From Methanobrevibacter olleyae (GTDB lineage Archaea; Methanobacteriota; Methanobacteria; Methanobacteriales; Methanobacteriaceae): a stretch of 57,395 bases of DNA. Within the stretch, counting starts at the first letter, position 1, and the number at the start of each line of letters is the position of its first letter. Both the position numbers and the translations under genes were made by a program. Shown in pieces: positions 11,395 through 56,950 of the stretch. The stretch covers positions 1 to 57,395 of the forward strand of contig SUTG01000010.1 of NCBI GenBank assembly GCA_015063035.1. Reading direction: 5' to 3'. Below the pieces are notes generated by a model that was given only the letters and a program-made list of their open reading frames with translations, was not told where the DNA came from and searched no databases.

Positions 11395-11437
11395 TCTTTA
11401 ATTCTTCTTTTTTTCTTTCTTTAATTAATTTTTTGAA
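11395..11437 (+). terminator. T-rich terminator after iorB
   Basis: A run of T-rich blocks follows the iorB stop, including a TTCTTCTTTTTTTCTTTC stretch. Archaeal transcription commonly ends in such tracts without a hairpin. The convergent gene ends at 11443, so the tract is nearly the entire gap. Confidence 0.45.
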
Positions 11438-11442
11438 ACTAT

Positions 11443-12015: not shown

Positions 12016-12395
12016 CCTAACACCTCCATTCAAGTCGATTAGATGCAATTGCCAATTAGTGGTTTATAAAATTTTTTAAAAAAAATAAGAAAAAATAATT
12101 AAATTTTATAGTAATATTATTATGTTTTAATAATATATTAAATTTTTTAAATCAATTTTTCAAATTAATTTTTTCAGAAATTAATTTTTTTATTTTCAAA
12201 TATTTCATTCATATTTTTTAAAAAATTTTTTCAGTATCCTATTTTTGCATTTCAGCATAAAATTTCTGCATCTTGTTAATTTGGATAATTATTCATTTAT
12301 ATAAGAATAATCTAACTAATATTATCTAAAAAGAAATGGAATTTCATTAATCATTTTAGAAAATTAAAAAATAGATTAAAATTAAGTGTGATTGC
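12016..12395. other. Divergent AT-rich gap
   Basis: This gap of about 350 bp is almost pure A/T, with long T-runs on the left half and TATA-like sequences near 12297-12305 for the rightward gene. No open reading frame with a ribosome site, no hairpin with GC content and no RNA gene was seen. Confidence 0.5.
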
Positions 12396-12671
12396 ATGTC
12401 TGAAAGTGAATTATATAGTAGAGCAGAGAAAAGAGTGGATGAAAAGATGAGTTTTTATCATCATTTATACAGTTTCATAGCTGTAAACATAACTCTTATT
12501 GTAATAAATGTATTGTTTTCTCGTGGTGAATGGTGGTTTTATTGGGTAACCCTTTTCTGGGGAATCGGTTTAGTGTCCCATTATATTAGAACCTTTGTTT
12601 TCTTTGAGAAGTTTGATGAAAAATACAGGGATCAAATGATTGAAAAGGAAATGGAAAAGATGAAAAAATAA
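12396..12671 (+). CDS. 2TM-domain membrane protein
   Basis: A 91-residue protein with a short charged N-terminus (SRAEKRVDEKMSFYHHL), two membrane helices (about residues 24-42 and 47-67, separated by SRGEWWFYW) and a charged C-terminal helix. This is the 2TM domain layout (PF13239-like), which in bacteria is often linked to LytTR regulators. GTGAT precedes the ATG. It is followed by a LytTR protein and a DUF3021 protein, suggesting a three-gene signalling or sensing module. What it senses is unknown. Confidence 0.8.
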   Translation: MSESELYSRAEKRVDEKMSFYHHLYSFIAVNITLIVINVLFSRGEWWFYWVTLFWGIGLVSHYIRTFVFFEKFDEKYRDQMIEKEMEKMKK

Positions 12672-12754
12672 GCATGGATTTTAAAAATGTTTATTTTATT
12701 AAAAAACAATATTTTAAATTGATTAGTTATTTATAAAAATTGTTTGGTTATTTT

Positions 12755-13216
12755 ATGAAAGTGAATTTGTTTGTTTCAAAAGACCTTGAAGAGCCTTATG
12801 CAGAAATTTATACAGATGCATTGACTGACAATATTCAAAAGGCAATGGTTCTTTTGGAAAATGAAACTGAAGATGAAGAAGGAATGAGTGACAATTCAAT
12901 ATTGGCTGTAAAGAAGGGACAGGATATTGTTCTTTTGGACTTTGAAGACATCTTCATGATTAGAGTTGAGGAAAAGCAGACCAAAGTCTATACAGAGGAT
13001 AATGATTACTTGGTTAAAAAGCCTCTCTATCAGATTGAAGAGAATCTTGACTCTAATTTCGTAAGGGTTTCAAAGACAACTATTGTCAATTTGAGAAAGA
13101 TAAAAAGAGTGGCTCCTTCCTTAAGGGGAATGATGTTTATTGAGCTTAAGAACGGATTGAAGGATAATATTTCAAGAAAATACTTGTCCGATTTTAAGGA
13201 TGCTTTAGACTTATGA
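12755..13216 (+). CDS. LytTR-domain transcription regulator
   Basis: A 153-residue protein without a receiver domain. The C-terminal two thirds match the LytTR DNA-binding fold: a beta segment (ILAVKKGQDIVLLDFEDIFMIRVE), then KTKVYTEDNDYLVKKPLYQIEENLD, then FVRVSKTTIVNLRKIKRVAP, ending in ISRKYLSDFKDAL. These standalone LytTR proteins with a short N-terminal segment are typical Firmicutes partners of DUF3021 membrane proteins. A TTG five codons upstream was not preferred. LytTR regulators are rare in archaea, so acquisition from gut bacteria is plausible. It likely controls its own operon (inference). Confidence 0.88.
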   Translation: MKVNLFVSKDLEEPYAEIYTDALTDNIQKAMVLLENETEDEEGMSDNSILAVKKGQDIVLLDFEDIFMIRVEEKQTKVYTEDNDYLVKKPLYQIEENLDSNFVRVSKTTIVNLRKIKRVAPSLRGMMFIELKNGLKDNISRKYLSDFKDALDL

Positions 13217-13250
13217 TTAATATTATTATGATTATTGTAAAGGTGGTTAT

Positions 13251-13688
13251 ATGAAATCTGATTTTATTGGAAGATTAGCATTGGGAGCATTTGTAGGGTG
13301 CTTTGTTGTAATGCTTGTAATGGTATTGGGATCAAGCATTGCAGGTCCCGAAAATGTATCATTCAGTGGTGTTGAAATAATAAATGCCTTCCTTGGATCC
13401 ATTGTAGTTGGATGGGCATTTAGTTTAAGTGGACTCATTTATGATAAGGAAGAAGTTCCATTTCCACTTCAAGTCATTTTCCAAATGGTAATTGGTATGG
13501 GTGTATTGTTTGCTGTAGCAGTTTACTTGCAATGGATGCCGATCAGCTTAGGAATCGGTCCAATAATTACGTGGATTGTAATAGCTTGTATCTTTGCTGC
13601 TATATTCTGGGCAGGATTTTATGTCTATTACTCTCTTCAAGCAAGAGATATAAATAAAAAATTGGAATTATCCAACAAGCTTTTTTAG
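13251..13688 (+). CDS. DUF3021 four-helix membrane protein
   Basis: A 145-residue protein with four predicted membrane helices (about residues 8-30, 43-63, 72-94, 100-125) and a short charged C-terminal tail. It is DUF3021-like and lies directly after the LytTR gene, the standard bacterial pair in which the membrane protein antagonises or modulates the LytTR regulator. AAGGTGG before the ATG fixes the start. The stop codon lies inside the left arm of a perfect hairpin that probably ends transcription. Confidence 0.85.
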   Translation: MKSDFIGRLALGAFVGCFVVMLVMVLGSSIAGPENVSFSGVEIINAFLGSIVVGWAFSLSGLIYDKEEVPFPLQVIFQMVIGMGVLFAVAVYLQWMPISLGIGPIITWIVIACIFAAIFWAGFYVYYSLQARDINKKLELSNKLF

Positions 13689-42869: not shown

Positions 42870-43853
42870 TTAATTATTTCTTCTTTCTCTAATCAACCTT
42901 AAGAACTCTTTGGAATTCTCAACCTCTTTCATTTCCCATGACTTGATTACTGGAATTCCATCGATTGAATCCTTGATCTTATCATCCTTAAGCACAAAGA
43001 ATGGGTCTGAAGAGGTTACAAGGGAAAGGTCCTTTAAGCTGATTGCCATTTTCTTCAATGTTTTTGTATTCTGCTCATCCTGAACGTTCAAGTTAGCTAT
43101 GAGTGGAGTTTGCTCTTTCTTTCTAGTGGCTATTTCAGCTTTAGCAAGTGCATCGAATGGACTCTTATTGGTTGAAACCACACCAAAACCTAATTTTGCC
43201 AAGTTTTGAGCATTTGTTCCTTGTGTCTGATTTAGACTGCTTGTATCTGCCTTTAGCTTAATGTCTTCCTGATAAGGTTCAAAAAGGTCGATATCAAGGG
43301 TAATCTTTGTATTCAAGATTTCTTCAAGAAGCATTGCAGTTTCAGTGTTTGCTCTCACCATTCCATTTTCATACTTGTACATTGTAGCTCTTGAAACATG
43401 TGCCAAATCAGCTAAATCCTTCAATGATAAGTTGTATTCTTCTCTGTATTCCTTTAGAACATTTCCATTGATTTGAACGTAATATCCTCCACGGTCTGCA
43501 AGGATTTCAGGATACTCATCATAGACAATCATGTTCTTTAAGGTTTCAAGGCCAATTGCAGGAAGCCCATGTCTTTCATAGACAACATCCTCTTCCAAAA
43601 TATGGTTTTTGGATTTCACTCCTACAATGATTGGACTGGCTAAGAAAACATTAGAGATTTGCCTAATCTCCTCTACATGAGATTCATTTATACTATCGAT
43701 ATTCACGAGGACTTTTAAAAGTAGAATAAGCAATTTCTTACGAGCCACAATATCAAAGCAGCTTTGTTCATAGATATTTGATGTTTCAAAGCCCTCTTTG
43801 TTTAGCAGTTGATAAACTTCCCGTATTAATTGATTCCTATTTGTTATTGCCAT
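42870..43853 (-). CDS. Archaeal Cro/C1-type HTH regulator
   Basis: A 327-residue regulator of the archaeal family formerly called putative HTH-type transcriptional regulatory proteins. An N-terminal nuclease-like or sensor domain (about 1-125; EVYQLLNKEGFETSN, CFDIVARKKLLILLLKVLVNID) is followed by a Cro/C1 helix-turn-helix (VLKEYREEYNLSLKDLADLAHVSRATMYKYENG, about 132-164) and a linker. A conserved C-terminal region ends in LSLVTSSDPFFVLKDD. GAGGCGAT precedes the ATG. It is probably co-transcribed with the small membrane protein. Its regulon is unknown. Confidence 0.92.
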   Translation of the reverse strand: MAITNRNQLIREVYQLLNKEGFETSNIYEQSCFDIVARKKLLILLLKVLVNIDSINESHVEEIRQISNVFLASPIIVGVKSKNHILEEDVVYERHGLPAIGLETLKNMIVYDEYPEILADRGGYYVQINGNVLKEYREEYNLSLKDLADLAHVSRATMYKYENGMVRANTETAMLLEEILNTKITLDIDLFEPYQEDIKLKADTSSLNQTQGTNAQNLAKLGFGVVSTNKSPFDALAKAEIATRKKEQTPLIANLNVQDEQNTKTLKKMAISLKDLSLVTSSDPFFVLKDDKIKDSIDGIPVIKSWEMKEVENSKEFLRLIRERRNN

Positions 43854-44087: not shown

Positions 44088-45341
44088 ATGGATTATTTTT
44101 ATATTGGAATTGATGATACAGACTCTCCAGATGGGATGTGCACTACATTTCTTGCATCAACTATCCTAAATGAGTTCAGGGATAATGGTATAGAGATTAT
44201 TGGCCATCCAAGATTGATTCGTCTAAACCCTTTTGCAAGATTCAAGACTAGAGGAAATGGAGGAGTATCATTTAAATTGAGCTTGGATCAAGACATTGAT
44301 TTGGCAAAGGAAATTGTGCTGAAATATGTGTCCGAGCTGTCAATGTTTGATTGTGACAACACTAATCCTGGGGTAGTGTTCTATCAAGGTGAAATCACTG
44401 AAGAGATGATTGATTATGCATTTAAGGCAATTTACTCAATAATCACTATTGAAGAGGCAGAGGAGTTTGCAAATCATATCGGTGCTCAAATCCATAAGTT
44501 CAAGAAAGGAAGGGGGATAATCGGTTCAATTGCAGCTATTTCATGTCCTCTTGAAGATTATACCTATGAGCTATTGGCATATAGGCATCCATCAAGATAT
44601 GGGACAAAAAGGAATATTGATTATGATTCAGTTGTCAAAATGGACAAGGAGACATATCCTGAAACCTTTGAAAACATTGACGGCAAGTATTTGGCCATTG
44701 AACCAAAGACTCCATGCCCTGTTCTGTATGGTATCAGGTCCAACAGTCCTGAAGTTCTTGAGGCTGCACGGGATATTGTCATTCCAAATGAGGAGATTGT
44801 TGATTCATGCATTTTCAAGACAAATCAACATACTGACATGCACATTCAAAATGCAAATTCAATTAGTGAGCTTAAACAGTATTCCTGCTATAGGATTAAA
44901 GGATTTGTCAAGGACAAGCCCCATATAATTGAAGGAGGGCACATGTTCTTCACATTCTATGATGAAAGCGGTGAAATTGAGTGCGGAGCATATGAACCAA
45001 CCAAGAACTTTAGAAAAGTTGTAGCCAAATTGAGAGCAGGAGATGAGATTGAGCTTTATGGAGGAATAGGTGAACAGAACACTTTCAACATTGAAAAGTT
45101 CCAAGTCATAAAGCTAAATGAGTTTGTTTATAGGAATCCTATTTGTAAATGTGGCAAGAGAATGACCTCTGCTGGAAAAGGAAAAGGATTCAAGTGCAAA
45201 AGCTGTGGCAATAGGATAGAGTCAGATGAGAAAATAGCTGAAAAGGTGGAAAGAACATTAGTCAATGGCAAATTCTATGAAACTCCAGTTTCAGCAAGAC
45301 GTCATTTGTCCAAACCTTTGATTCGTATGAATTTGGAATAA
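44088..45341 (+). CDS. tiaS: tRNA-Ile2 2-agmatinylcytidine synthetase
   Basis: A 417-residue essential archaeal enzyme that attaches agmatine to C34 of tRNA-Ile2 using ATP, so that it reads AUA. The N-terminus YIGIDDTDSPDGMCTTFLA is the ATP-dependent TCKD domain hallmark. GRGIIGSIAAIS near residue 143 and PCPVLYGIRSN near residue 205 belong to the ferredoxin-like domains. An OB fold (about 270-345) precedes a C-terminal zinc ribbon (CKCGKRMTSAGKGKGFKCKSCG). GTGAT before ATG 44088 decides the start. Confidence 0.96.
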   Translation: MDYFYIGIDDTDSPDGMCTTFLASTILNEFRDNGIEIIGHPRLIRLNPFARFKTRGNGGVSFKLSLDQDIDLAKEIVLKYVSELSMFDCDNTNPGVVFYQGEITEEMIDYAFKAIYSIITIEEAEEFANHIGAQIHKFKKGRGIIGSIAAISCPLEDYTYELLAYRHPSRYGTKRNIDYDSVVKMDKETYPETFENIDGKYLAIEPKTPCPVLYGIRSNSPEVLEAARDIVIPNEEIVDSCIFKTNQHTDMHIQNANSISELKQYSCYRIKGFVKDKPHIIEGGHMFFTFYDESGEIECGAYEPTKNFRKVVAKLRAGDEIELYGGIGEQNTFNIEKFQVIKLNEFVYRNPICKCGKRMTSAGKGKGFKCKSCGNRIESDEKIAEKVERTLVNGKFYETPVSARRHLSKPLIRMNLE

Positions 45342-45567: not shown

Positions 45568-46935
45568 ATTACTGATCAATCTTCACATCCATATAGGGAA
45601 AAAACTGATAGGGCGATAAAGAAGAGACCTCCATGGAAGGAGTATAATTTACATATTGTCGTGTTTATTTTAGTTATTATTTCCATGTTCATTGGAGTAA
45701 AAGAGATTAAGATAACAGACACTATCAGTGTTTTACTATTGCCATTGATCTATGCATTAGTTATGGGATTGGGTCTTTATTTGGCAAAACCTATTAAGTT
45801 TGTAGGCAGTAAGCAATCTAAGGTAGCTGAAGGGGCTATGGTTTTATTCATAGGTGTCCTAATTGCTAAATTAGCTATTTCAAGTGGACAATCCATTAAT
45901 ATTATTTTTCAGGTAGGCCCTGCTTTGGTTTTACAGCTTTTAGGTGATTTAGGTACCCTTATTGCATTGCCTGTTGCTTTGCTTTTAGGATTTAGAAGAG
46001 AAGTTATAGGTATGGCAAGTTCAATTTGTCGTGAACCTAACTTAGGTGTCATTATCGATAAGTATGGTTTTAAATCCCCTGAGACTCGTGGAGTTTTGGC
46101 TATTTTCGTGATTGGATCAATTATCGGTACTCCTTATATCAGTTTCCTTTCAAGCATATGTGTTTCACTTATACCTTTCCATCCATATGCATTTGCAATG
46201 GCGTCTGGTATTGGTAGTGCAAGTATGAATGCTGCAGCATTGGTCCCATTAGTGCATACATATCCCGCTATGGCCACCCAACTTGAAGCCTTTGCAGGAT
46301 GCAGTAATATTCTCTCATTCTGTTTAGGAATTTACATGTGTATTTTCATTTCCTTGCCTATTGCAGAAAGATTGTATAAATGGATATCCCCAAGAATAGG
46401 AAAAGACGATGAGCATACCATTGATGATGAGTATGCTATTGAAGGGGTAAAGGATGATAAATATGCCTCTTCAGAGGATTTGACTTCAGGTAAGCTTAAA
46501 AGATGGGCTACTTTCCTTGTAATATTTTCATTTATCGTGGCTATTGGAAATTTTGTAGGTTATAAAACCCCAATAAGCGATGTATTCATTGGAATGCTTT
46601 TGATTTCACTCATTACAATTATAGGAATGTCTCTTGAAAGGATTATTCCATGGAATATCCAATCAATCATTTATATAAGTTTAATCGGTATCATTGTGGC
46701 TATTCCTGGTGTTCCAACTGCTGACTTTATAGTTCATTATGTTTCCCAAATCGAATTGACTACAATCTGTACCGCATTCCTGGCTTATGTTGGTATTGCA
46801 ATCGGTAATGATTGGGAAGAGTTCAAGAAGATCGGTTGGAAAGGAATCATCATTGCCATGATTGTGATTACTGGAACTTACCTTGGTTCTGCAAGCATTG
46901 CAAATGTGGTTTTATTATTAACAGGAATGATTTAA
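45568..46935 (+). CDS. DUF3100-type multi-spanning membrane protein, copy 1; probable AUU start
   Basis: A protein of about 455 residues with roughly twelve hydrophobic segments, resembling DUF3100 carrier-like proteins. The middle has the conserved block RREVIGMASSICREPNLGVIIDKYGFKSPETRGVLAIFVIGSIIGTP, and an acidic loop (about residues 285-310) lies between two halves. It probably transports an organic acid, given the downstream enzymes (inference). The first standard codon is GTG 45661, but the preceding 31 codons are clearly translated because the paralogue keeps them with only synonymous changes. ATT 45568, three bases after GGAGTGAT, is the probable initiator. An in-frame stop lies at 45532. 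Confidence 0.85.
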   Translation: MTDQSSHPYREKTDRAIKKRPPWKEYNLHIVVFILVIISMFIGVKEIKITDTISVLLLPLIYALVMGLGLYLAKPIKFVGSKQSKVAEGAMVLFIGVLIAKLAISSGQSINIIFQVGPALVLQLLGDLGTLIALPVALLLGFRREVIGMASSICREPNLGVIIDKYGFKSPETRGVLAIFVIGSIIGTPYISFLSSICVSLIPFHPYAFAMASGIGSASMNAAALVPLVHTYPAMATQLEAFAGCSNILSFCLGIYMCIFISLPIAERLYKWISPRIGKDDEHTIDDEYAIEGVKDDKYASSEDLTSGKLKRWATFLVIFSFIVAIGNFVGYKTPISDVFIGMLLISLITIIGMSLERIIPWNIQSIIYISLIGIIVAIPGVPTADFIVHYVSQIELTTICTAFLAYVGIAIGNDWEEFKKIGWKGIIIAMIVITGTYLGSASIANVVLLLTGMI

Positions 46936-47241
46936 GAAATCCATTTCTCACTTTTTTTATTTATTTTTTAAGTTATTTTTAAGTTATTTTTTAAGTATTC
47001 TTTAAGTTATTTTTTAATTTTTTCAATATCTCCCTCACTTTTGTAAGTTTTTTCATAAATTTTTCCATTGACTGATTATTTTTTAAGAATTCTAATCTAA
47101 TTAAGCAATAATCTGTCATGATTTATAATTTTTAAAAATTAAATAGTTTAGTATATAAATAATAAACTTATAATCTTTAATCATAAAACTTATTTAAATT
47201 GGTTAAGTTTATATGTATACATTAAATTAAGGCGGGATTTT
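46936..47241. other. Gap between the two DUF3100 genes
   Basis: This 306-bp AT-rich gap begins with a run of TTTTTAAGTTA-like repeats (46960-47005) that may end transcription of copy 1. Its second half holds the promoter of copy 2, with a TATA element GTATATAAAT near 47151-47160. No gene was seen. Confidence 0.55.
47145..47168 (+). promoter_or_regulatory. AGTTTA...TAAACT inverted repeat at the second DUF3100 promoter
   Basis: AGTTTA and TAAACT flank the TATA element GTATATAAAT with a 12-base spacer. The arms match those at 45482-45500, although spacing differs (7 versus 12 bases), so a common operator is suggested but not certain. Confidence 0.4.
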
Positions 47242-48615
47242 ATCACTGACAGTCAAGCTCAACACCCATATAGGGAAAAAACGGATAGGGCAATTAAGAA
47301 GAGACCTCCATGGAAGGAGTATAACTTACACATTGTTGTGTTTGTATTGGTTATAATCTCAATGTTCATTGGAGTTAAGGAGATAAAAATAACAGAAACT
47401 ATCAGTGTTTTATTGTTACCTTTAATATATGCGCTTGTTTTAGGATTGGCTCTTTATCTTGCAAAGCCTATTAAGTTTGTTGGGCCTAAGCAATCTAAGG
47501 TAGCTGAAGGGGCTATGGTTTTATTCATTGGTGTCTTAATCACTAAATTGGCTATTTCAAGTGGGCAGGCAATATCCAGTATTTTCCAAGTGGGCCCTGC
47601 TTTGATTTTGCAGCAAATAGGTAATTTAGGAACTCTTTTGGCATTGCCTATTGCACTGTTTTTTGGATTTAGAAGGGAAGTTATAGGTATGACAAGTTCA
47701 ATTTGTCGTGAACCTAACTTAGGAGTCATTATCGATAAGTATGGCTTCAAATCCCCAGAGACTCGTGGAGTTTTAGCTGTTTTTGTAATTGGATCCATTC
47801 TCGGTACTCCATTCATCAGCTTTTTATCAAGTATCAGCGCTTCACTCATTCCTATGCACCCCTATGCTTACGCAATGGCTTCAGGTGTAGGAAGTGCAAG
47901 TATGAATGCTGCGGCTCTTGCTCCATTGATGCATATGTTCCCATCAATGGCCACTCAATTGGAGGCTTTTGCAGGGTGCAGTAACCTTCTTTCATTCTGT
48001 TTCGGTATTTATATGTGCATATTTGTTTCACTTCCGCTTGCAGAAAGAATGTATGATTGGTTAGCTCCCCATATCTTAGGTCATGATGAGATAATAAGCA
48101 TTGATGATGATTATGCCATTGAAGAGGTAAAGCATGATAAGTATGCAACTACTGATGACTTGACTTTAGGTAAGCTTGAGAGATGGGCTACCTTCCTTGT
48201 AATATTCTCATTTATTGTGGCAGTGGGAAATTATATAGGATTCAATACTTCAATAATTGATGCATTCATTGGAATGCTTTTGATTTCACTCATTACAATC
48301 ATTGGGATGTCTCTTGAAAGGATCATCCCATGGAACATTCAAGCAATCATTTATATAAGCTTAATCGGTATTTTTGTAGCAATTCCAGGTGTTCCAACAG
48401 CTGACTTCCTGGTTCATTACGTTTCCCAGATTGATTTGACTACAATCTGTACTGCATTCCTGGCTTATGTTGGTATTGCAATCGGTAATGATTGGGAAGA
48501 GTTTAAGAAGATCGGTTGGAAAGGAATCATCATTGCTTTAATTGTGATTTCAGGAACTTACCTTTGTTCTGCAGCTATTGCTCATATAACTTTAGTTGCT
48601 ACAGGAATGGTTTAA
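47242..48615 (+). CDS. DUF3100-type multi-spanning membrane protein, copy 2; probable AUC start
   Basis: A protein of about 457 residues and close paralogue of the gene at 45568. Nearly all membrane segments and the RREVIGMTSSICREPNLGVIIDKYGFKSPETRGVLAVFVIGSILGTPF block are shared. Differences concentrate in the loop after LPLAERMYDWLAPHILGHDE and in a few helices (for example MHPYAYAMASGVG versus FHPYAFAMASGIG), so the copies may differ in substrate or expression. Again no ATG exists at the conserved N-terminus; the first GTG is 47338. ATC 47242 is preceded by GGCGGGAT at the same spacing as ATT in copy 1. It lies 172 bp upstream of the PrpD-type gene. Confidence 0.85.
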   Translation: MTDSQAQHPYREKTDRAIKKRPPWKEYNLHIVVFVLVIISMFIGVKEIKITETISVLLLPLIYALVLGLALYLAKPIKFVGPKQSKVAEGAMVLFIGVLITKLAISSGQAISSIFQVGPALILQQIGNLGTLLALPIALFFGFRREVIGMTSSICREPNLGVIIDKYGFKSPETRGVLAVFVIGSILGTPFISFLSSISASLIPMHPYAYAMASGVGSASMNAAALAPLMHMFPSMATQLEAFAGCSNLLSFCFGIYMCIFVSLPLAERMYDWLAPHILGHDEIISIDDDYAIEEVKHDKYATTDDLTLGKLERWATFLVIFSFIVAVGNYIGFNTSIIDAFIGMLLISLITIIGMSLERIIPWNIQAIIYISLIGIFVAIPGVPTADFLVHYVSQIDLTTICTAFLAYVGIAIGNDWEEFKKIGWKGIIIALIVISGTYLCSAAIAHITLVATGMV

Positions 48616-48640
48616 TTAAATTCTTTTTTTAATATTTTTT

Positions 48641-48722
48641 AATCTTTAATATAACTTCTTTTAAATTTTTCAAATAATTATTTTCAATCTTTAATTTTAA
48701 CTTCTTTCAAATTTTTCAAATA
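48641..48722. repeat. 45-bp imperfect tandem duplication
   Basis: AATCTTTAAT followed by an AACTTCTTT and AAATTTTTCAAATA block starts at 48641 and again at 48686. It occupies the gap between DUF3100 copy 2 and the PrpD-type gene. Confidence 0.8.
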
Positions 48723-48787
48723 TCCATTTGCCAAATCCTTTTTTTTATTGTACAAATTTATTATATAGTAATTATAAAGATAAGATT

Positions 48788-50173
48788 ATGATTATCAATC
48801 AATTGTCCGAATATTTGATTCATTTAAGATATGGGGATATTCCCAAAGAAGCTATTGAGAAGGCTAAATTATGTTTTATAGATTATTTGGCAGTTTATCT
48901 AAGAGGTTTAGAGACTGAAAATGCCCAAATAGCAATTAAAACCATTTATGAATTATATGGCAATGATTTTAATTCATTGAATAAGGGTTTCATAAATGGA
49001 ATCGCATCTCATGGCTTGGATTTGGATGATGGTCATAGATTCGCTCAATTGCATCCGGGGTCAGTTGTATTTTCCACAATATTGGCTTTGGCAACAGATA
49101 AGAATTTAGACTTGGATATCACAGTGGAAGAGTTTTTTGAGGCTGTTATTGCAGGTTATGAAGTAGCAATTGCACTTGGAATGCTTGTTAATCCAGATCA
49201 CAGAAACCAAGGATTCCATAGCACTGGGACAGTAGGGGCCTTTGCATCTGGAGTTGTAGCGTCAAAGCTTTTAAAACTTGATTTGGAGAAGACAGAGCAT
49301 TGTTTAGGTTTATGTGCAACACAATCTTCAGGACTTCTTGAAGCGGATCATGCAGGTACAATGGGCAAGTCATTGCATGTTGGAAATGCAGTTTACAATG
49401 GAATATTATCCGCTTTCTTGGCTAAAAACGGTTTTACTGGTGGAGAATCATTGATTGATGGAAATGAAGGATTCATAAAAGCCATGGCTTCAGATTTATA
49501 TGATAGGCATTGTGATGAAAAAGGAAATTTTTATGATGGAAAACTAGTGGAATTCATTGATATGAATCTAAACAGATTCCATATATGCAATGTCTATTTA
49601 AAGAAATATCCTTTCTGCAGACATATTCATTCAGCTATTGATTCAACTTTGGCTTTAAAGGAGGAATTGAATAATCTTGAATTGTATGATATTGATTCAA
49701 TAGATATTGAAACCTACAAAATAGCAAGTGAACATGACAATTTCAATCCAAAAAATCTTCAGGATTTAAAGCAATCCTTGCCTTATGCAGTTGCCATTTC
49801 CTTAGTTTGTGACGATTTGAGTTTGGATTCAATTGATGAATTGATTGATAAAGGTCTTTTTGATGAAGAATCAGATGATGAGATTAAAAAAATTAAGGAT
49901 ATTGCAAAGGTAATGAAGATTGATAATAATGATGAATTAAATCAATTGACTCCAGAAAAAAGACCATCTAAAGTAATAATTAAATATAAAGGTAAAACTC
50001 TAGAAAATACGACTTATTATCCATTGGGAGAAGTGGAAAATCCTTTATCAGATGAAGGTATCTTAGAGAAATTCAGACTTTTAAATCCTAAGTTTAATAT
50101 GAATAAATTACAAATAATTAAACATATGGAAGATTATCCAATCAATGAAGTCTTTAATGAATTAGGTTTATAA
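48788..50173 (+). CDS. MmgE/PrpD-family dehydratase or isomerase
   Basis: A 461-residue member of the MmgE/PrpD family (2-methylcitrate dehydratase, cis-aconitate decarboxylase, iminodisuccinate epimerase). The N-terminal helical domain has AIEKAKLCFIDYLAVYLRGLE, then HGLDLDDGHRFAQLHPGSVVFSTILALA near residue 75, where the HxLDxDD pattern is the family mark. FHSTGTVGAFASGVVASKLL near residue 138 and SSGLLEADHAGTMGKSLHVGNAVYNGILSAFLAKNGFTGGE complete the active region; YPFCRHIHSAIDS near residue 275 is conserved. The substrate is probably a tri- or dicarboxylate. It is cytoplasmic and the first enzyme of a four-enzyme run. Confidence 0.9.
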   Translation: MIINQLSEYLIHLRYGDIPKEAIEKAKLCFIDYLAVYLRGLETENAQIAIKTIYELYGNDFNSLNKGFINGIASHGLDLDDGHRFAQLHPGSVVFSTILALATDKNLDLDITVEEFFEAVIAGYEVAIALGMLVNPDHRNQGFHSTGTVGAFASGVVASKLLKLDLEKTEHCLGLCATQSSGLLEADHAGTMGKSLHVGNAVYNGILSAFLAKNGFTGGESLIDGNEGFIKAMASDLYDRHCDEKGNFYDGKLVEFIDMNLNRFHICNVYLKKYPFCRHIHSAIDSTLALKEELNNLELYDIDSIDIETYKIASEHDNFNPKNLQDLKQSLPYAVAISLVCDDLSLDSIDELIDKGLFDEESDDEIKKIKDIAKVMKIDNNDELNQLTPEKRPSKVIIKYKGKTLENTTYYPLGEVENPLSDEGILEKFRLLNPKFNMNKLQIIKHMEDYPINEVFNELGL

Positions 50174-50309
50174 AATTATTAATTGTTTTTATCAAAGTAT
50201 ATTAGGTTTATAAAATATTTTTTTATCAAAGTATATTAGGTTTATAAAATATTTTTTTATCAAAGAATATTAGGTTTATAAAATTATTATATTGTTTTTA
50301 TCAAAGTGA
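50161..50309. repeat. Four tandem copies of a 34-40-bp unit
   Basis: ATTAGGTTTATAAAAT begins at 50161, 50201, 50235 and 50269, each copy ending in TTTTTATCAAAG. The first copy contains the last codons and stop of the PrpD-type gene. The last copy ends in the ribosome site of the next gene, so the gap itself has been multiplied. Confidence 0.9.
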
Positions 50310-50314
50310 TTTTT

Positions 50315-51193
50315 ATGATGGATGAAACTAAAAAATCATTAGAAAAGTTAGGAATCAATGAATTGCATGATGATTATACATCAGAGAAAAGATTTGAAGA
50401 TGGAGGACAATACAGGTTTGAAGTTCCAGGAATACAAGGTCCCTCTGCACTTGAATCTCTTTTAGAAGCTTCTAATGATTATGACTTAACAATTCATAGG
50501 GCCACTCAAACCAAGGGAATCATGTTCCTATTGGATGATGAAATATGCAAAATGGTTGATTTGGCTAAAGAAATTAATATGCAATTGTTTTTAGCAGTTG
50601 GTCCAAGGGCTCCCTATGATACAAGCGCCACCGTTCAAACTGAAGAGGGAAAACGCATAGGATACAGATTAAGAGGTTACAGTAACCTTGTTTATGCTAT
50701 TGAAGATGTTAAAAGAGCAGTTGATTTAGGAGTTAGAGGCATCTTATTATATGATGAAGGATTGCTTTATACTCTTTCTAAAATGAGAGATGCAGGTGAA
50801 CTTCCTAAAGACCTATTATTCAAGTTGTCTGCCCATGCAGGCTGTTCCAATCCTGCCTCAGCTAAACTCTTTGAATCAATCGGATTGAACTCACTTAATC
50901 CTGTAAGGGACCTTCAGATTCCAATGCTTGCATCACTTAGAGATGCAATAGACATTCCAATTGATATTCATACAGAAAATCCAAAGTCCACTGGAGGTTT
51001 CATCCGCCATTATGAGGTTCCTGAAATGATCAAGGTGGCAAGTCCCGTCTATTTGAAGACTGGAGGATCAGTTGCAAAGCATCACAGTTGGGACACAACT
51101 GTAAAGGAAGCACGTCAAAGAGCTAAGCAAGTGGCTTTAATTAGGGATTTGATTGAAAGGCATTATCCTGAAGCTATAATGAGCAAATTATAG
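50315..51193 (+). CDS. U32-peptidase-like TIM-barrel protein
   Basis: A 292-residue barrel protein resembling a group usually labelled U32 family peptidase in gut Firmicutes. Conserved blocks are TIHRATQTKGIMFLLDDEICKMVDLA, LFLAVGPRAPYDTSATVQTEEGKRIGYRLRG, then AVDLGVRGILLYDEGLLYTLSKMRD, FKLSAHAGCSNPASAKLFESIGLNSLNPVRDLQIPMLASLRDAIDIPIDIHTENPKSTGGFIRHYE and PVYLKTGG. The peptidase label is by homology only. In this setting an enzyme acting on a small carboxylate, such as a lyase or isomerase, is at least as likely. GTGAT precedes ATG 50315. Confidence 0.8.
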   Translation: MMDETKKSLEKLGINELHDDYTSEKRFEDGGQYRFEVPGIQGPSALESLLEASNDYDLTIHRATQTKGIMFLLDDEICKMVDLAKEINMQLFLAVGPRAPYDTSATVQTEEGKRIGYRLRGYSNLVYAIEDVKRAVDLGVRGILLYDEGLLYTLSKMRDAGELPKDLLFKLSAHAGCSNPASAKLFESIGLNSLNPVRDLQIPMLASLRDAIDIPIDIHTENPKSTGGFIRHYEVPEMIKVASPVYLKTGGSVAKHHSWDTTVKEARQRAKQVALIRDLIERHYPEAIMSKL

Positions 51194-51254
51194 TAAACAT
51201 AAATAAAAATAATTGATTTCATCGTTTTTTCAAATTAAAATTATTGTTGATATT

Positions 51255-52139
51255 ATGGATTTGATTGAAAAGGTTCAAGATGCAGTTGTAAATGCAGGCA
51301 GTTCATATAGTGAGGACAGACTATCCGCTTATGAAAATGCTCTAAAGTTGGAAAAGGAGCTGAACAATGAAAATGCAGTCTGGGCCTTGGAACAGATGAT
51401 AGAAAACTTTAAGGTAGCTGATGATAAGAAGCTTCCATTATGTGATGATACAGGAATTCCTCATGTCCTGATTGAAATAGGAAAGGAAAGGGAAATTCCT
51501 AAGGGATTTTTCAATGAAATCAATATTGGCATTGCTCAAGGACTTGATAATCTTCCAGGAAGGCCAATGGCAGTTAAAGGAAATGATATGGAACGTATTG
51601 AGCAATCGCAAGGTTTATACAATGAACCCAATATGATGAAGCCTGCATCCTTTTTAATAGAGGAGAAAGATGAATCCACTTATGGAAGGCTGATTGGAGT
51701 GGATGATGATAAGATAAGAATCACTGTTCTATTGGAAGGCGGAGGTCCTGAAATAAGGGCAAAGACCTATAGGGTTTTCCATAAAAGAGAATCAAAAATA
51801 GTTTTCGGTGAAGCTTTGGATTGGCTAAAGGAATCATTGGCTATGTTAGGTTGCACTCCATCAATTCCAGCTATTGGAGTAGGTAGAACCCACTTTGAGG
51901 CAAATGCATTGATGATTAGAGCAATGGCTCATGGTAATTTAAGCAATCAATCAGATATTGAAAAATACATTACAGAAGAGTTGAACAAGACAAATATAGG
52001 TCCTTTAGGTCTTGGAGGTAAGACAACAGTCCTTGGATCGTTTGTAAATATAGGGTCTCAAAGGGCAAGTGGAGTGAGAATTGTAGCAGCAAGGCCTGCA
52101 TGTTTTGTTGAGCCAAGGGTTTCAAGCTTTGTATTTTAA
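51255..52139 (+). CDS. Class I fumarase alpha-type hydratase
   Basis: A 294-residue homologue of the alpha (N-terminal) subunit of iron-sulfur fumarate or tartrate hydratases. Cluster-binding cysteines are visible in KLPLCDDTGIP near residue 71, in MLGCTPSIPAIGVGRTHFEANALMIRA near residue 200 and in RPACFVEP near the C-terminus. LGLGGKTTVLG is also typical. A working class I enzyme needs a beta part, which is not adjacent here, so it must pair with a distant beta gene or act alone on a related hydroxy acid. It could hydrate or dehydrate the product of the PrpD-type enzyme (inference). The ATG at 51255 follows a weak GTTGAT. Confidence 0.88.
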   Translation: MDLIEKVQDAVVNAGSSYSEDRLSAYENALKLEKELNNENAVWALEQMIENFKVADDKKLPLCDDTGIPHVLIEIGKEREIPKGFFNEINIGIAQGLDNLPGRPMAVKGNDMERIEQSQGLYNEPNMMKPASFLIEEKDESTYGRLIGVDDDKIRITVLLEGGGPEIRAKTYRVFHKRESKIVFGEALDWLKESLAMLGCTPSIPAIGVGRTHFEANALMIRAMAHGNLSNQSDIEKYITEELNKTNIGPLGLGGKTTVLGSFVNIGSQRASGVRIVAARPACFVEPRVSSFVF

Positions 52140-52222
52140 TTAGTTTAATGATGAGATAGTATAAATAGAAAAAGATTAAATTTATTAATAAAGATATTTT
52201 TTAGATTATTTAGGAGAATATT

Positions 52223-53062
52223 ATGAACGAAAATCCAAAACCTGGCAAGAATGGTTTTAAATTCCCACAGAGCATTAAAACTAAGATTACTGATGTAAAG
52301 CCTAATGAATTGGTTACTAGAGGTTATAATCAGGAAGATTTAATCACAAACCTTAGCTTTGCAGAGATGGTGTTCTTGCTTCTTAGAGAAAGATTGCCTG
52401 ATGAGAGGCAGTCCAAGATATTCAACCATATTCTTGTTTCATTTTGCGATCATGGTGTAACTCCTCCAAGCACACAGTCTGCAAGATTGATAGCATCATC
52501 AGGTGCAAATATCAACAATGCTGTTGCAGGAGGATTGTTGTCCTTTGGAAAAAACCATGCAGGAGCTATTGAAAAGGCTATGGAATTGTTCCAGGAATCA
52601 ATCAGTTCATTAAACCTTGAAGAAACTGCAGAGGAGGATGTGAACAAGAAAATAGCTGCGAAGGCTATTGAAATTGTTGATAAGTACCAATCCGAATCCA
52701 AAAGAATACCTGGCTATGGCCATAGGTATCATGATAAGGACCCTCGTGCAGTAAGGTTGATTGATTTGGCTATTATGGAATCATCAATTGGCCCACATAC
52801 AAAATTGGCGCTTGCAATCGAGAGCATACTCTCTGAGAGAAAAGGCATTTGCTTGAATGTGGATGGGGTCAATGCAGGATTGCTTTCCGATTTAGGCTTT
52901 GATAGCTCTTTAGGTTTAGGTATTTTCATGATTGGAAGACTCCCTGGACTTGTAGCTCATGCATATGAAGAAATGGAAGAGGAAGAGAAATTCAGACGAT
53001 TCTGTGATTTGGAAGATATCGTTTATGAAGGCTTTAAAAACAGAAAAATGGATGAGGAGTAA
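52223..53062 (+). CDS. Citryl-CoA-lyase-like citrate synthase family protein
   Basis: A 279-residue citrate-synthase-fold enzyme of the short citryl-CoA lyase type. SGANINNAVAGGLLSFGKNHAGAIEKAM near residue 94 contains the first active-site His region. IPGYGHRYHDKDPRAVRL near residue 160 is the synthase signature (GxGHRxxxxxDPR) with the second His. LNVDGVNAGLLSDLG near residue 212 holds the Asp region, and IGRLPGLVAHAYEE the Arg/His that bind the carboxylates. It probably splits a (substituted) citryl-CoA into acetyl-CoA and a 2-oxoacid. No CoA ligase or transferase for activation is adjacent. AGGAG precedes the ATG. Confidence 0.88.
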   Translation: MNENPKPGKNGFKFPQSIKTKITDVKPNELVTRGYNQEDLITNLSFAEMVFLLLRERLPDERQSKIFNHILVSFCDHGVTPPSTQSARLIASSGANINNAVAGGLLSFGKNHAGAIEKAMELFQESISSLNLEETAEEDVNKKIAAKAIEIVDKYQSESKRIPGYGHRYHDKDPRAVRLIDLAIMESSIGPHTKLALAIESILSERKGICLNVDGVNAGLLSDLGFDSSLGLGIFMIGRLPGLVAHAYEEMEEEEKFRRFCDLEDIVYEGFKNRKMDEE

Positions 53063-53067
53063 TATAA

Positions 53068-53193
53068 TTTATTATTAATTTTTTATCAAAAATGATTATT
53101 TATTTGATGATTTATTATTAATTTTTTATCAAAAATGATTATAAATTTGATGATTTATTATTAATTTTTTTATCAAAATGATTTATTTAATGG
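53068..53193. repeat. 43-bp tandem repeat, three copies
   Basis: TTTATTATTAATTTTTTATC begins at 53068, 53111 and 53154, an exact 43-bp period, and each copy continues CAAAAATGAT. The array fills the gap between the citryl-CoA-lyase-like and nitroreductase genes and contains the same TTTTTATCAAA core as the repeats at 50161-50309. Confidence 0.9.
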
Positions 53194-53203
53194 AGTAATT
53201 TAA

Positions 53204-53710
53204 ATGGAATTTTTTGATGTTATTGAACAAAGATACAGTATGAGAGGCTTTGAAGACAAGGAAGTGGAGAAGCAAAAATTAGATAAGATTTTAAAAGCTG
53301 CTCAACTTGCTCCAACAGGAGTAAACTTCCAGCCTTTTAAGGTAATTGTAATTGACACTAAAAAGCATAAGGAAGAATTGAAAGGAATTTACAGCCCTGA
53401 TTGGTTTACACAAGCGCCAATTGTCCTTTGTGTAGTTGCCTCAAAGGAAAAGGCTTGGACTAGAAAGTATGATGATAAGAACATTGCAGACATTGATGCA
53501 ACCATTGTAATGACCCATATGATCCTTGCGGCTGAAGATGTGGGTTTGAACACTTGTTTCATTGCAGCATTCAAGCCGGATAAGGCAAGAGAATTCCTTG
53601 ATTTAGATGATGAATGGGAGCCTGTCCTATTCACTCCTTTAGGTTATGGAAATGCAGAGCCAAGAGATACTCCTAGAAAAGCTATTGAAGAATTGGTCAT
53701 TTACAAATAA
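53204..53710 (+). CDS. Nitroreductase-family flavoprotein
   Basis: A 168-residue FMN-dependent oxidoreductase. FFDVIEQRYSMRGFEDKEVEKQKLDKILKAAQLAPTGVNFQPFKVIVI is the N-terminal FMN-binding block. VMTHMILAAEDVGLNTCFIAAF near residue 104 and FTPLGYGNAEPRDTPRKAIEELV at the end are family features. The substrate cannot be told from sequence; such proteins reduce nitro compounds, quinones or cofactors. It lies at the end of the rightward carboxylate-type cluster, 141 bp after it, and is followed after 34 bp by a small membrane protein. Confidence 0.92.
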   Translation: MEFFDVIEQRYSMRGFEDKEVEKQKLDKILKAAQLAPTGVNFQPFKVIVIDTKKHKEELKGIYSPDWFTQAPIVLCVVASKEKAWTRKYDDKNIADIDATIVMTHMILAAEDVGLNTCFIAAFKPDKAREFLDLDDEWEPVLFTPLGYGNAEPRDTPRKAIEELVIYK

Positions 53711-54619: not shown

Positions 54620-54934
54620 ATGGCAGGGATATCAGAAGCTATTACCCAAATAAAAAAAGCTGAAAGCGATGCTGATTCCTTAGTAGAACAATCAACAGTC
54701 GATGCGAAAGCAATGATTGATGAGGCTACTGTTAAAGCTAATGAAATGATTGAACTTGCTAAGAATGAAGCTAGCGAAGAAGCTCAATCTACTGTTTTTA
54801 ATGCAGAAGAAAATGCAAAGAAAGAAGCTGAAACTATAAGTGCTCAAGCAGAAAAAGATGTTGAAAATATCAAAAAAGCTGCTAGAGGCAATATAGATGA
54901 AGCTGCTTCAATTATTGTTAAAAATATTTTATAG
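54620..54934 (+). CDS. ahaH: A-type ATP synthase subunit H
   Basis: A 104-residue, almost entirely helical, Ala/Glu-rich protein (heptads throughout, for example MIDEATVKANEMIELAKNEASEEAQS), typical of the peripheral-stalk coiled coil that pairs with subunit E. It links the membrane subunit I to the catalytic head. It is the first gene of the archaeal H-I-K-E-C-F-A-B-D order, of which the first three are visible. GGTGAT precedes the ATG, and the next gene starts 9 bp after the stop. Confidence 0.9.
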   Translation: MAGISEAITQIKKAESDADSLVEQSTVDAKAMIDEATVKANEMIELAKNEASEEAQSTVFNAEENAKKEAETISAQAEKDVENIKKAARGNIDEAASIIVKNIL

Positions 54935-54943
54935 TGTGAGATA

Positions 54944-56950
54944 ATGTTTAGAACTGCGAGAATGCGTAAGCTTAATGTTATAACTTTGGACAAATACGCT
55001 AGTCCTACGGTCAGTGCACTTCACGACGAGGGTATTGTTCAAATAAATGATATTTCTGAACGTATTCAGCAAGATCCTAAGCTAGCAGAACTTTTGAAAC
55101 CTTCAAAAGTTACACCCCACACCGGTAAGCTATCTTCACTTCTCATGAAGACAAGCGGTATTTCCGATTTGCTTGGAGATGCCTTGTCTGAGGATAGGAG
55201 CATGAAAGAACTGATAATGTCATTTATCAGTCCTGACCTTCCAGTTCCAAAAGAAGTCGAGGATGTTGATACTGAAAGCTTGATAGCTTATGCAGAATCA
55301 ACATTAAGCCAGGTTGAAGGTGAAACAAAAGGTATTGAAAATAAGTTAGCCGCACTAGACAGTGAAGAGAGTAAACTTGAATCAAATAAGGATTTGGCTC
55401 TAAAGCTAAAACCTTTAGACATGGACTTAGGTCTATTAAGCGATTCCAAGTACACTTCTACCATTGTTGGTAGGATCACTGCTGAGTCAGCTCAGAAATT
55501 CAAAGATGAATACAGTAAGATTACAGATGATCTCTTCTATGAATTAGTTCCAGGCGAAGAAAAAGAAAGTTATATCATGGTTGTCGTCGTTGCTAATGAG
55601 TATAAGGATGATATCTATACCTTACTTAGGAAAAATGAATTCGAGAAGTTTGAAACTGAAGGTTTAGAAGGAAGACCAGATAGTCTTATTTCCTCTTCTG
55701 AATCCAGACTCCAAGCTATCGAAAGTGAAAGATCCCAAGCTAAAGCTGAATTGAAAGTTGTAGCGGAAAAATGGGATGATGAAGTTCTTGCTTTAAAAGA
55801 ACAATTAGAAAATGAGAAAGATAAAAATGAGGTTTTCGCTGGTTTTGCTGAAACTGACAAGACTTATGTCTTTGAGGCATGGGTGCCTGAAAAAGATGTG
55901 GAAAAAGCTCAAAGCATTATTGAGACCGCAACTGAAGGCCATGCAATCATGGAAGTTGAGGAAGTTCCAGACAATGCAGAGGATGTTCCTGTATTGCAGC
56001 AAAACAATGCTTATGCAAAACCTTATGAATTGTTAGTTGAAATGTATTCCCCATTGAAATACAATGAAATTGACCCTACTTTATTTGTAGCTCTTACATA
56101 TCCTTTCTTCTTCGGTTTCTGTTTAACCGATGCAGGTTATGGTCTTTTAGTTGCAATTATAGGATTCATTTTATACAGAGGAATGGGTAAAGTCAATAGA
56201 ACCATGCATGATGGTGGTTTAATCATCATCGCAAGTGGTGTATGGGCTATTATTTTAGGTCTGGTTACCAATGGTTTACTTGGGGACCTATGGACTAGAA
56301 TATTAGGTTGGGGCCCTGCTCTCCCTACAGTTATTGATTCCATTAATGCGTTCAAATATCCAGCTACTATCTTAGTTATTGCTATTGTAATTGGTATTAT
56401 TTACACCAACCTTGGTTTCATCTTAGGTGCAATTGACAATTTAAGATACGGCGAGAAAAAAGAAGCTATCGGTTCTCAAATCGTATGGTTTGTATTTGAA
56501 CTTGGTATCATCTTATTGGTTTTAGGATTCTTGTTCCCAGCTATTGGAATGATTGGTATGGCATTAGGTGCAGTATTTATTGTTGCTGCTCTTGGTATGC
56601 TTATCTGGGGTAACGGTGCTTACGGACTTATGGATGTATTTGGATTCATGGGAGATGTACTTTCATATGCTCGTCTTTTAGCTCTTTGTTTAGCTACTGG
56701 TGGTATTGCAATGACTGTAAACATCTTGACCAATATGGTAAATGACATGATTCCAGTTGTAGGTATTGTTTTAGCTATTATCATCTTTATCGGTGGACAC
56801 ATTGCTAACTTCCTTTTCCAAGTATTAGGTGCTGGTGTTAACGCTTTGCGTCTTAACTATGTAGAGTTCTTCTCTCAATTCTATATGGGTGGAAAACATT
56901 CATTTGAAGCTTTTAAAGCTAAAAGACAATTTACTAAAATCAAAAAATAG
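54944..56950 (+). CDS. ahaI: A-type ATP synthase subunit I (a-subunit homologue)
   Basis: A 668-residue stator and ion-channel subunit. The first ~370 residues form the cytoplasmic arm with coiled coils (for example ESERSQAKAELKVVAEKWDDEVLALKEQLENEK). The C-terminal ~300 residues hold about eight membrane helices, starting at DPTLFVALTYPFFFGFCLTDAGYGLL. The essential channel Arg is probably in DVLSYARLLALCLATGGIA, and GHIANFLFQVLGAGVNALRLNYVEFFSQFY is highly conserved. It conducts Na+ or H+ against the K-ring. GTGAGAT precedes the ATG. Confidence 0.96.
   Translation: MFRTARMRKLNVITLDKYASPTVSALHDEGIVQINDISERIQQDPKLAELLKPSKVTPHTGKLSSLLMKTSGISDLLGDALSEDRSMKELIMSFISPDLPVPKEVEDVDTESLIAYAESTLSQVEGETKGIENKLAALDSEESKLESNKDLALKLKPLDMDLGLLSDSKYTSTIVGRITAESAQKFKDEYSKITDDLFYELVPGEEKESYIMVVVVANEYKDDIYTLLRKNEFEKFETEGLEGRPDSLISSSESRLQAIESERSQAKAELKVVAEKWDDEVLALKEQLENEKDKNEVFAGFAETDKTYVFEAWVPEKDVEKAQSIIETATEGHAIMEVEEVPDNAEDVPVLQQNNAYAKPYELLVEMYSPLKYNEIDPTLFVALTYPFFFGFCLTDAGYGLLVAIIGFILYRGMGKVNRTMHDGGLIIIASGVWAIILGLVTNGLLGDLWTRILGWGPALPTVIDSINAFKYPATILVIAIVIGIIYTNLGFILGAIDNLRYGEKKEAIGSQIVWFVFELGIILLVLGFLFPAIGMIGMALGAVFIVAALGMLIWGNGAYGLMDVFGFMGDVLSYARLLALCLATGGIAMTVNILTNMVNDMIPVVGIVLAIIIFIGGHIANFLFQVLGAGVNALRLNYVEFFSQFYMGGKHSFEAFKAKRQFTKIKK

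Follow-up and report, generated by a model that had tools for sequence, protein, structure and literature searches.

Methane formation begins with the uptake of CO2 by methanofuran, a coenzyme whose tail varies between methanogen groups. In methanofuran-a the tail is 1,3,4,6-hexanetetracarboxylic acid (HTCA), which is hydroxylated in M. smithii; HTCA was reportedly described from M. thermautotrophicus by White in 1987 and 1988 and is, to our knowledge, restricted to the class Methanobacteria. We know of no genes for this tail. The 2-methylcitrate pathway consists of PrpC, PrpD and PrpB. According to a passage of PMC11365854 the furan-tyramine-glutamate core is the product of the mfn genes known so far, and a passage of PMC8141765 states that methanofurans a and c carry terminal residues unlike those of other methanofurans. 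The window analysed here is a stretch of 57,395 nucleotides from Methanobrevibacter olleyae (contig SUTG01000010.1), in which six open reading frames (ORFs) of the same strand were confirmed between 45568 and 53062. They encode two DUF3100 membrane proteins (copies A and B), a MmgE/PrpD-family protein (prpD), a U32-like TIM-barrel protein, the alpha subunit of a class I hydro-lyase (fumA-alpha) and a short citrate-synthase-fold enzyme (ccl); the last four are called the core below. We propose, with a probability of about 0.55, that the core four together with an unlinked beta subunit make the polycarboxylic end group of methanofuran (HTCA of methanofuran-a, hydroxylated in methanofuran-c). The module is most likely biosynthetic.

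The core proteins were searched for in 151 genomes of the phylum, where one genus (g12, 20 genomes) is taken as Methanosphaera on the basis of one of its members. The U32-like gene is present in 128 of the 151 genomes; the 23 without it are all 20 Methanosphaera-type genomes and three assemblies that are 67–72% complete. Among the 91 good-quality genomes it occurs in 78/78 outside this genus and in 0/13 within it. The ccl gene (partial matches and those running past stop codons were scored as present) is found in 122/151 genomes and in 0/20 of the Methanosphaera type, with nine misses outside that genus: eight in assemblies of 62–84% completeness and one in an assembly of 300 contigs (G011). 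FumA-alpha is matched with E 1e-60 or better in 124 of the 131 other genomes, while the best match in the Methanosphaera-type genus (E 1.5e-11) is at the level of other fumarase-type genes. PrpD, tested in 26 genomes, is present in 6/6 cluster-bearing and 0/20 Methanosphaera-type ones. The core is an old, near class-wide gene set of Methanobacteria, far from a niche catabolic set. M. stadtmanae lacks molybdopterin synthesis and is unable to bring CO2 to the formyl stage, as described in a passage of PMC10658910, and a passage of PMC9598358 infers that the Methanosphaera ancestor lost further genes of the CO2 pathway.

An earlier note on this DNA proposed a catabolic route: uptake of a citrate-like acid through DUF3100, its rearrangement by PrpD and the hydratase, and its cleavage to acetyl-CoA and a 2-oxoacid by the ccl-like enzyme. 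The enzyme families suit such tri- and dicarboxylate chemistry. However, nearly all members of a largely autotrophic class have the core, and it is gone from a genus which needs acetate and methanol and is unable to reduce CO2; a catabolic add-on predicts the reverse. Given this distribution, the synteny and the variable presence of DUF3100, catabolic use of citrate was rejected as the main explanation, and we consider it very improbable.

The order prpD, U32-like, fumA-alpha, ccl is found in 17 of the 20 fetched loci, from four families of the class, and the association of the four genes is far from chance. Two of the three exceptions (L035 and L050) are truncated where their contigs end; in the third (L045, genome G010) the U32-like gene stands alone, with fumA and ccl on other contigs (L045 / L127). 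The core matches lie on separate contigs also in five drafts of genus g13 (G131–G135). The cluster has therefore come apart on one occasion or more while the U32-like and fumA genes were retained. In six cluster-bearing loci compared, tiaS is located upstream in five (not in L031) and ATP synthase genes downstream in five (not in L033, the sole genome from another taxonomic order, where the longest ORFs of tiaS and of the core overlap or almost touch). The corresponding site of the Methanosphaera-type genomes is empty: 6/6 loci keep the helix-turn-helix (HTH) gene, tiaS and both ATP synthase genes, and just the four core genes are gone, leaving a gap of 371–452 bases from the tiaS match to that of ATP synthase subunit H. 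The suggestion of the earlier note that the enzymes belong together thus holds for four of them, on account of the conserved order and joint absence. The gene neighbourhood, which it had named as a check, upholds the core four (17/20 fetched loci) but not DUF3100 (5/20).

The class I hydro-lyase was also said to lack its beta subunit. No fumarase beta gene was found inside the window's cluster, as claimed, but a matching beta subunit is encoded elsewhere, mostly by mfnA. With the beta protein of a bacterial cluster (see below) as query, a 46–53% identical gene is found in 6/6 cluster-bearing genomes and only 32–35% matches in 4/4 Methanosphaera-type genomes. In the genome of the window this gene is at G000:C23:33737-34234 and exceeds the PF05683 cut-off. 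Both alpha and beta are distinct from the other fumarase-type matches in the archaeal genomes (~30% identity), and from their co-distribution we infer that they pair into one hydro-lyase. The gene mfnA, that of the methanofuran tyrosine decarboxylase, is above the TIGR03812 cut-off in all six cluster-bearing genomes, and in five of them the beta gene lies shortly downstream of it on the same strand. Judged by the longest ORFs, there is an overlap of 4 bases in two genomes and a spacing of ~20 and ~170 bases in two others. The string of genes is L10e, phosphoenolpyruvate (PEP) synthase, mfnA and beta (families tested at L191). The corresponding 11-kb stretches of 6/6 Methanosphaera-type genomes retain mfnA and contain no beta gene. 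Beta is thus missing together with the cassette, which links it to the module. None of the four core genes, for their part, was seen adjoining an mfn gene. The methanofuran reading was conceived before the neighbourhood of beta and mfnA came to light. At the M. thermautotrophicus locus the beta gene (L194:9510-9999) and the PEP synthase gene (11200-13452) are split over frames, possibly by sequencing errors.

The same string of genes bears on the possibility that the product is some other polycarboxylate of Methanobacteria, for instance an anionic solute in free form or a group that modifies another coenzyme, and that the position next to mfnA is coincidental. HTCA is said to occur as a free solute in M. 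thermautotrophicus (Gorkovenko 1994), which counts in favour of this, as does the presence of unrelated genes in the mfnA string. On the other hand, beta and cassette are jointly absent from the Methanosphaera-type genomes, and by our own estimate, for a genome of 1,873 genes (the number given in a passage of PMC3087415), a chance neighbour among the approximately six known mfn genes would arise in ~0.3% of cases. We regard this reading as improbable.

Returning to the methanofuran tail, the distribution, the co-loss and the mfnA neighbourhood are observed, and to these we add an inferred substrate and order of steps. The structure of HTCA can be divided into two C5 units, each with the skeleton of 2-oxoglutarate, that are joined at C2. 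The citrate-synthase-fold enzyme would join glutaryl-CoA to the keto carbon of 2-oxoglutarate to give a citrate-like tertiary alcohol, which the PrpD protein would dehydrate in the manner of 2-methylcitrate dehydratase. The alpha/beta hydro-lyase would then hydrate the product or shift its double bond, and the U32-like barrel might perform a further aldol, lyase or isomerase step; a reductase and then an amide ligase would complete and attach the acid. The glutaryl-CoA may originate from the 2-oxoadipate of coenzyme B synthesis, which is named as an intermediate of that synthesis in a passage of PMC3087415. The earlier note had regarded a CoA-activating enzyme as missing. None is encoded in the cluster, which also speaks against the breakdown of an imported acid; it would not be needed if, as we suppose, the ccl-like enzyme may run in the condensing direction.

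Several points weigh against this proposal. No reductase and no amide ligase were found; the one query used for the ligase, a bacterial ATP-grasp protein, gave only 22–35% matches and no orthologue in 10/10 genomes, those of the Methanosphaera type alike. The cluster is not intact everywhere, being apart in G010 and the five g13 drafts. Beta and mfnA are ~800 bases apart in the window's genome, with an ORF of 121 codons between them, and ~72 kb apart in G047; the mfnA string carries L10e and PEP synthase genes as well and so is not dedicated to methanofuran. Close relatives occur in bacteria, for which methanofuran synthesis is not known. Finally, the Methanosphaera-type genus keeps mfnA (above cut-off in 19/20 genomes) and mfnB (9/9 tested), and a passage of PMC3439257 reports formylmethanofuran dehydrogenase to be encoded by M. 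stadtmanae. On our proposal M. stadtmanae would then make a methanofuran with a different tail, which can be tested.

Table 1. Coordinates of the cluster and of its flanking genes in the window.
Feature	Position	Strand	Basis or remark
HTH regulator	42870-43853	-	upstream of cluster
tiaS	44088-45341		upstream of cluster; TiaS domains above Pfam cut-off
DUF3100 membrane protein, copy A	45568..46935	+	PF11299, 280.5 bits (cut-off 27); accessory, outside conserved core
DUF3100 membrane protein, copy B	47242..48615	+	PF11299, 291.2 bits (cut-off 27); accessory
MmgE/PrpD-family protein, core gene 1	48788..50173	+	PF03972 and PF19305 above cut-off; start differs from ORF caller
U32-like TIM-barrel protein, core gene 2	50315..51193	+	AlphaFold2 model and fold matches; start differs from ORF caller
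Class I hydro-lyase (fumarase/tartrate dehydratase type) alpha subunit, core gene 3	51255..52139	+	PF05681; start differs from ORF caller
Short citrate-synthase-fold enzyme, citryl-CoA lyase type (ccl), core gene 4	52223..53062	+	NF004866
Nitroreductase	53204-53710		downstream of cluster
115-aa protein			downstream; no family above cut-off
ATP synthase subunit H (taken as)	54620-54934		downstream
ATP synthase subunit I (taken as)	54944-56950		downstream

The features of the window are collected in Table 1. Subunit I is labelled on the basis of its orthologues at two other loci, which exceed the V_ATPase_I cut-off. The gaps before the U32-like gene (50174-50310) and before the nitroreductase gene (53063-53190) contain short imperfect AT-rich tandem repeats, as seen by eye.

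The families given for the six co-directional genes in the earlier note are confirmed by curated cut-offs for the PrpD, fumarase-alpha, citryl-CoA-lyase and DUF3100 proteins, and the expected polycarboxylate chemistry agrees with the citrate-, aconitate- and malate-type appearance of the enzymes. The PrpD protein belongs to the MmgE/PrpD family by its N domain (198.1 bits) and C domain (94 bits; Pfam cut-offs 32.1) and lies far under the 2-methylcitrate dehydratase equivalog (NCBIfam NF006943, 41.6 bits vs 575); its nearest solved structures are chains of the IRG1 and IDS-epimerase types. FumA-alpha is a member of the Fumerase family (PF05681, 163.1 bits vs the Pfam cut-off of 25) and falls below the NCBIfam subfamily TIGR00722 (84.5 bits vs 100.65). 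Its residues C63, C200 and C283, which we take to be the ligands of a 4Fe-4S cluster, are invariant in 14/14 aligned sequences. Alignments A1–A4 hold 13 to 17 rows each, picked for diversity from 50 loci.

The U32-like protein scores 16.6 bits against PF01136, under the Pfam gathering score of 22.4, so that of its former description as a U32-like TIM barrel the barrel stands and the U32 part is reduced to a weak resemblance. The AlphaFold2 model is a TIM barrel with a predicted local distance difference test (pLDDT) value of 87.1. Fold matches are spread over CutC, class II fructose-bisphosphate aldolase, 2-methylisocitrate lyase and RuBisCO types; the U32 protein Mk0906 (5d88) matches with Z 14.8 (root-mean-square deviation (rmsd) 3.4, 187 residues aligned), tied with barrels of the CutC, RuBisCO and class II aldolase types. 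No solved relative was found by sequence in the PDB, and a lone row with E 0.7 is taken as chance. The identity as a U32 peptidase was rejected on account of the Pfam score and the missing PDB relative; the protein is probably a non-peptidase, as had been supposed. Its step is proposed to be of the aldolase, lyase or isomerase type, although the fold matches pin down no function.

The ccl protein exceeds the cut-offs of both Citrate_synt (Pfam, 153 bits vs 27) and the citryl-CoA lyase subfamily NF004866 (NCBIfam, 425.3 bits vs 245), and its nearest solved relative is citryl-CoA lyase 6hxp (E 9.3e-58). H112, H167 and D214 are invariant in 13/13 aligned sequences and aligned to 6hxp; presumably they are the catalytic His/His/Asp of the citrate-synthase fold. 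The protein does not qualify as a citrate synthase: with 279 residues it matches only the later part of the models, and all of those listed are far under cut-off. NF004866 is above cut-off in 0/14 control genomes, M. jannaschii and M. acetivorans included. A second ccl-like gene is present in G148, G143, G003 and G141 (L201–L204), where it adjoins an apparent phosphate-transport operon, a guess from gene sizes and order.

The relationship to 6hxp, the retained catalytic residues and the aconitate-acting enzymes among the PrpD relatives would also suit a hidden oxidative citrate branch, in which the ccl-like enzyme forms citrate, PrpD dehydrates it and the hydro-lyase rehydrates it to supply 2-oxoglutarate or other anabolism. 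Such a branch leaves the U32-like protein without a role, and an isocitrate dehydrogenase gene was not seen in the window's cluster. Moreover, Methanobacteria use the reductive branch, and Methanosphaera, which has no such set, also requires 2-oxoglutarate. We therefore find this branch hard to credit.

The DUF3100 proteins were described before as duplicates, and this is correct: copies A and B are 82.7% identical and both above the PF11299 cut-off. DUF3100 is near the core in just 5/20 fetched loci, none of them from families f2, f3 and f4, and is for this reason an addition to the core. The model of copy B has a mean pLDDT of 76.4. In Foldseek no match has E below 0.001; the lowest E belongs to GLUT1 and most rows are MFS-type, whereas the CitS rows carry the highest probabilities (0.75–0.95). 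All 50 VIA rows are elevator-type with Z from 13.5 to 10.2, a range that calls for caution with helical proteins: NHA2 (Z 13.5, rmsd 4.8, 283 aligned), SbtA (13.1) and the citrate symporter CitS (12.8, rmsd 4.5, 282 aligned). For the modelled protein an elevator-type (NhaA/CitS/SbtA) fold is suggestive only, and DUF3100 is perhaps a transporter. Of its supposed role as an importer, then, the resemblance to elevator-type transporters including CitS is retained, weak as it is in Foldseek; this favours the uptake and breakdown of a citrate-like acid, against which stand its presence at few core loci and a beta gene that mostly lies next to mfnA. No paper on DUF3100 was found in the open-licence literature.

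The DUF3100 genes probably start at non-canonical codons, copy A with ATT at 45568 (the ORF caller gives GTG at 45661) and copy B with ATC at 47242. ATT, ATC or ATA is the first codon of the conserved N-terminus in 13/20 rows, mostly behind a Shine-Dalgarno-like stretch, and in these 13 rows there is no in-frame ATG, GTG or TTG between the upstream stop (or the 15 codons shown) and the start. Apparent starts with AUU, AUC or AUA occur in the window, L055, L056, L058, L062 (two copies each), L065, L101 and L108. In 18 of 34 homologues (L077–L120) the gene is interrupted near residue 288 by a stop with an ATG directly behind it, mostly with a GGAGG-like stretch just ahead, so that apparently two coupled half proteins are made; 15 of the remaining homologues are fused and one has a lone TGA. 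Alignment A6 does not include the 19 homologues that contain internal stops.

A one-genome-per-species scan gave 469 relatives of the U32-like protein; the best 80, labelled as Methanobacteria-type, unspecified archaea or bacteria, were kept, and the neighbouring genes were read at 11 of these loci. Nine of these best 80 of 469 are bacterial at 63–66% identity, some from metagenome assemblies, under the labels Adlercreutzia, Tissierella, Clostridia, Clostridiales, Bacteroidales, Oscillospiraceae and Lachnospiraceae. Together with one further locus at 60% identity they form group 1 (ten loci). Gene counts were redone by tblastn, since reading one longest ORF per stretch had hidden some genes: U32, PrpD, CitE-like and ATP-grasp genes are present at 10/10 loci (two of the ATP-grasp matches at 25–27% identity), beta at nine, alpha at eight, and the citrate-synthase-fold enzyme at none. 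The latter as query gave only 28–33% matches, in ORFs of 436–526 codons, in nine group-1 genomes. The alpha and beta genes adjoin each other. Each locus has one reductase, of the aldo-keto type in five, the 2-hydroxyacid dehydrogenase type in four and the sulfolactate-dehydrogenase type in one; at the aldo-keto-type loci 3/3 thiamine pyrophosphate enzymes tested are of the phosphonopyruvate-decarboxylase type (388 to 411 bits vs 312.5). DegT, WbqC or glycosyltransferase genes were recognised next to 9/10 loci. In the tree of U32 proteins the archaea (94/89, not a starred branch) are separate from bacterial group 1 (99/96). In one Oscillospiraceae metagenome-assembled genome an IS256-type transposase gene (L131:12349-13605) stands directly after beta, where alpha would be expected.

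These bacterial loci, with U32, PrpD, CitE-like, ATP-grasp and reductase genes at all ten and glycan-type genes beside nine of them, and the 60–65% identity between archaeal and group-1 U32-like proteins, suggest another reading, namely that the module supplies a carboxylic acid to a polymer on the surface of Methanobacteria, as it seems to do in gut bacteria, with no tie to methanofuran. No glycan genes were recognised among the archaeal flanks tested, except one for a protein with a glucodextranase-B-type domain (L031), and for a set present throughout the class and absent from a single genus a coenzyme is a better match than a variable surface group; the beta gene, in addition, mostly lies next to mfnA. 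A surface polymer is accordingly unlikely, if worth keeping in mind, and the tail of methanofuran remains our preferred product.

A second group of U32 relatives (44–52% identical) is accompanied by malic enzyme (5/5 genes tested), hydro-lyase subunits, a dehydrogenase and PrpR-type regulators (2/2). These clusters look catabolic, which counts in favour of the breakdown of an imported acid. At L166–L174 the U32 relatives stand in apparent operons with hydro-lyase alpha/beta, malic enzyme, sulfolactate-dehydrogenase-like, D-glutamate-cyclase-like and PrpR-type regulator genes. Some loci of a third group (~32–40%; L182–L184, L177) have glutamate dehydrogenase, ketopantoate-hydroxymethyltransferase-like (PanB-type) and M24 peptidase-like genes. 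In a sample of 398 genomes from one bacterial phylum, 36 have any U32 relative.

Tentatively, and with more doubt than assurance, we suggest that with this module a gene set for the HTCA tail is described for the first time, that at its centre stands a new family of TIM-barrel enzymes with no more than a weak resemblance to peptidase U32, and that a sister module, in which the C–C bond enzyme is non-homologous, serves gut bacteria from several phyla to place the same or a closely related polycarboxylate on surface glycans. A search of the open-licence literature, outside which most subscription journals lie, gave no genes for the HTCA tail, no papers on HTCA and none on this gene set. The five candidate genes, one of them mostly by mfnA, make the origin of the tail directly testable. 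If the proposal is true, they would show whether the tail is required for CO2 reduction and would give a function to a U32-like protein of nearly all Methanobacteria other than Methanosphaera and of some gut bacteria.

Compared with known systems, the ccl protein resembles the citryl-CoA lyase of the split reductive citrate pathway (6hxp; PRK06224 group) in fold, length, NF004866 membership and the motifs HAG(A), PGYGHRYH and NVDG. It differs from that system in that no citryl-CoA synthetase gene was seen in the cluster and that the neighbours of this predicted enzyme are PrpD, hydro-lyase and U32-like genes. The module follows the logic of the 2-methylcitrate pathway, in which an enzyme with the citrate-synthase fold is combined with a PrpD dehydratase and a TIM barrel, but its PrpD is far under the equivalog cut-off and closer to IRG1 and IDS-epimerase, and its barrel has no solved sequence relative. 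As in the two-subunit class I fumarase or tartrate dehydratase, there are a PF05681 alpha subunit with three invariant cysteines and a PF05683 beta subunit; unlike there, their genes are unlinked in the six archaeal genomes tested. The bacterial clusters of U32, PrpD, CitE-like and FumAB genes have a closely related U32-like protein and a related hydro-lyase alpha/beta, whereas a CitE-like protein replaces the citrate-synthase fold and an ATP-grasp protein and a reductase are extra. The likeness to the methanofuran genes mfnA–mfnF is that beta stands in the mfnA string in 5/6 genomes and that the distribution of the module tracks CO2 reduction; the difference is that none of the known mfn genes explains the HTCA end, for which the module described here is a candidate.

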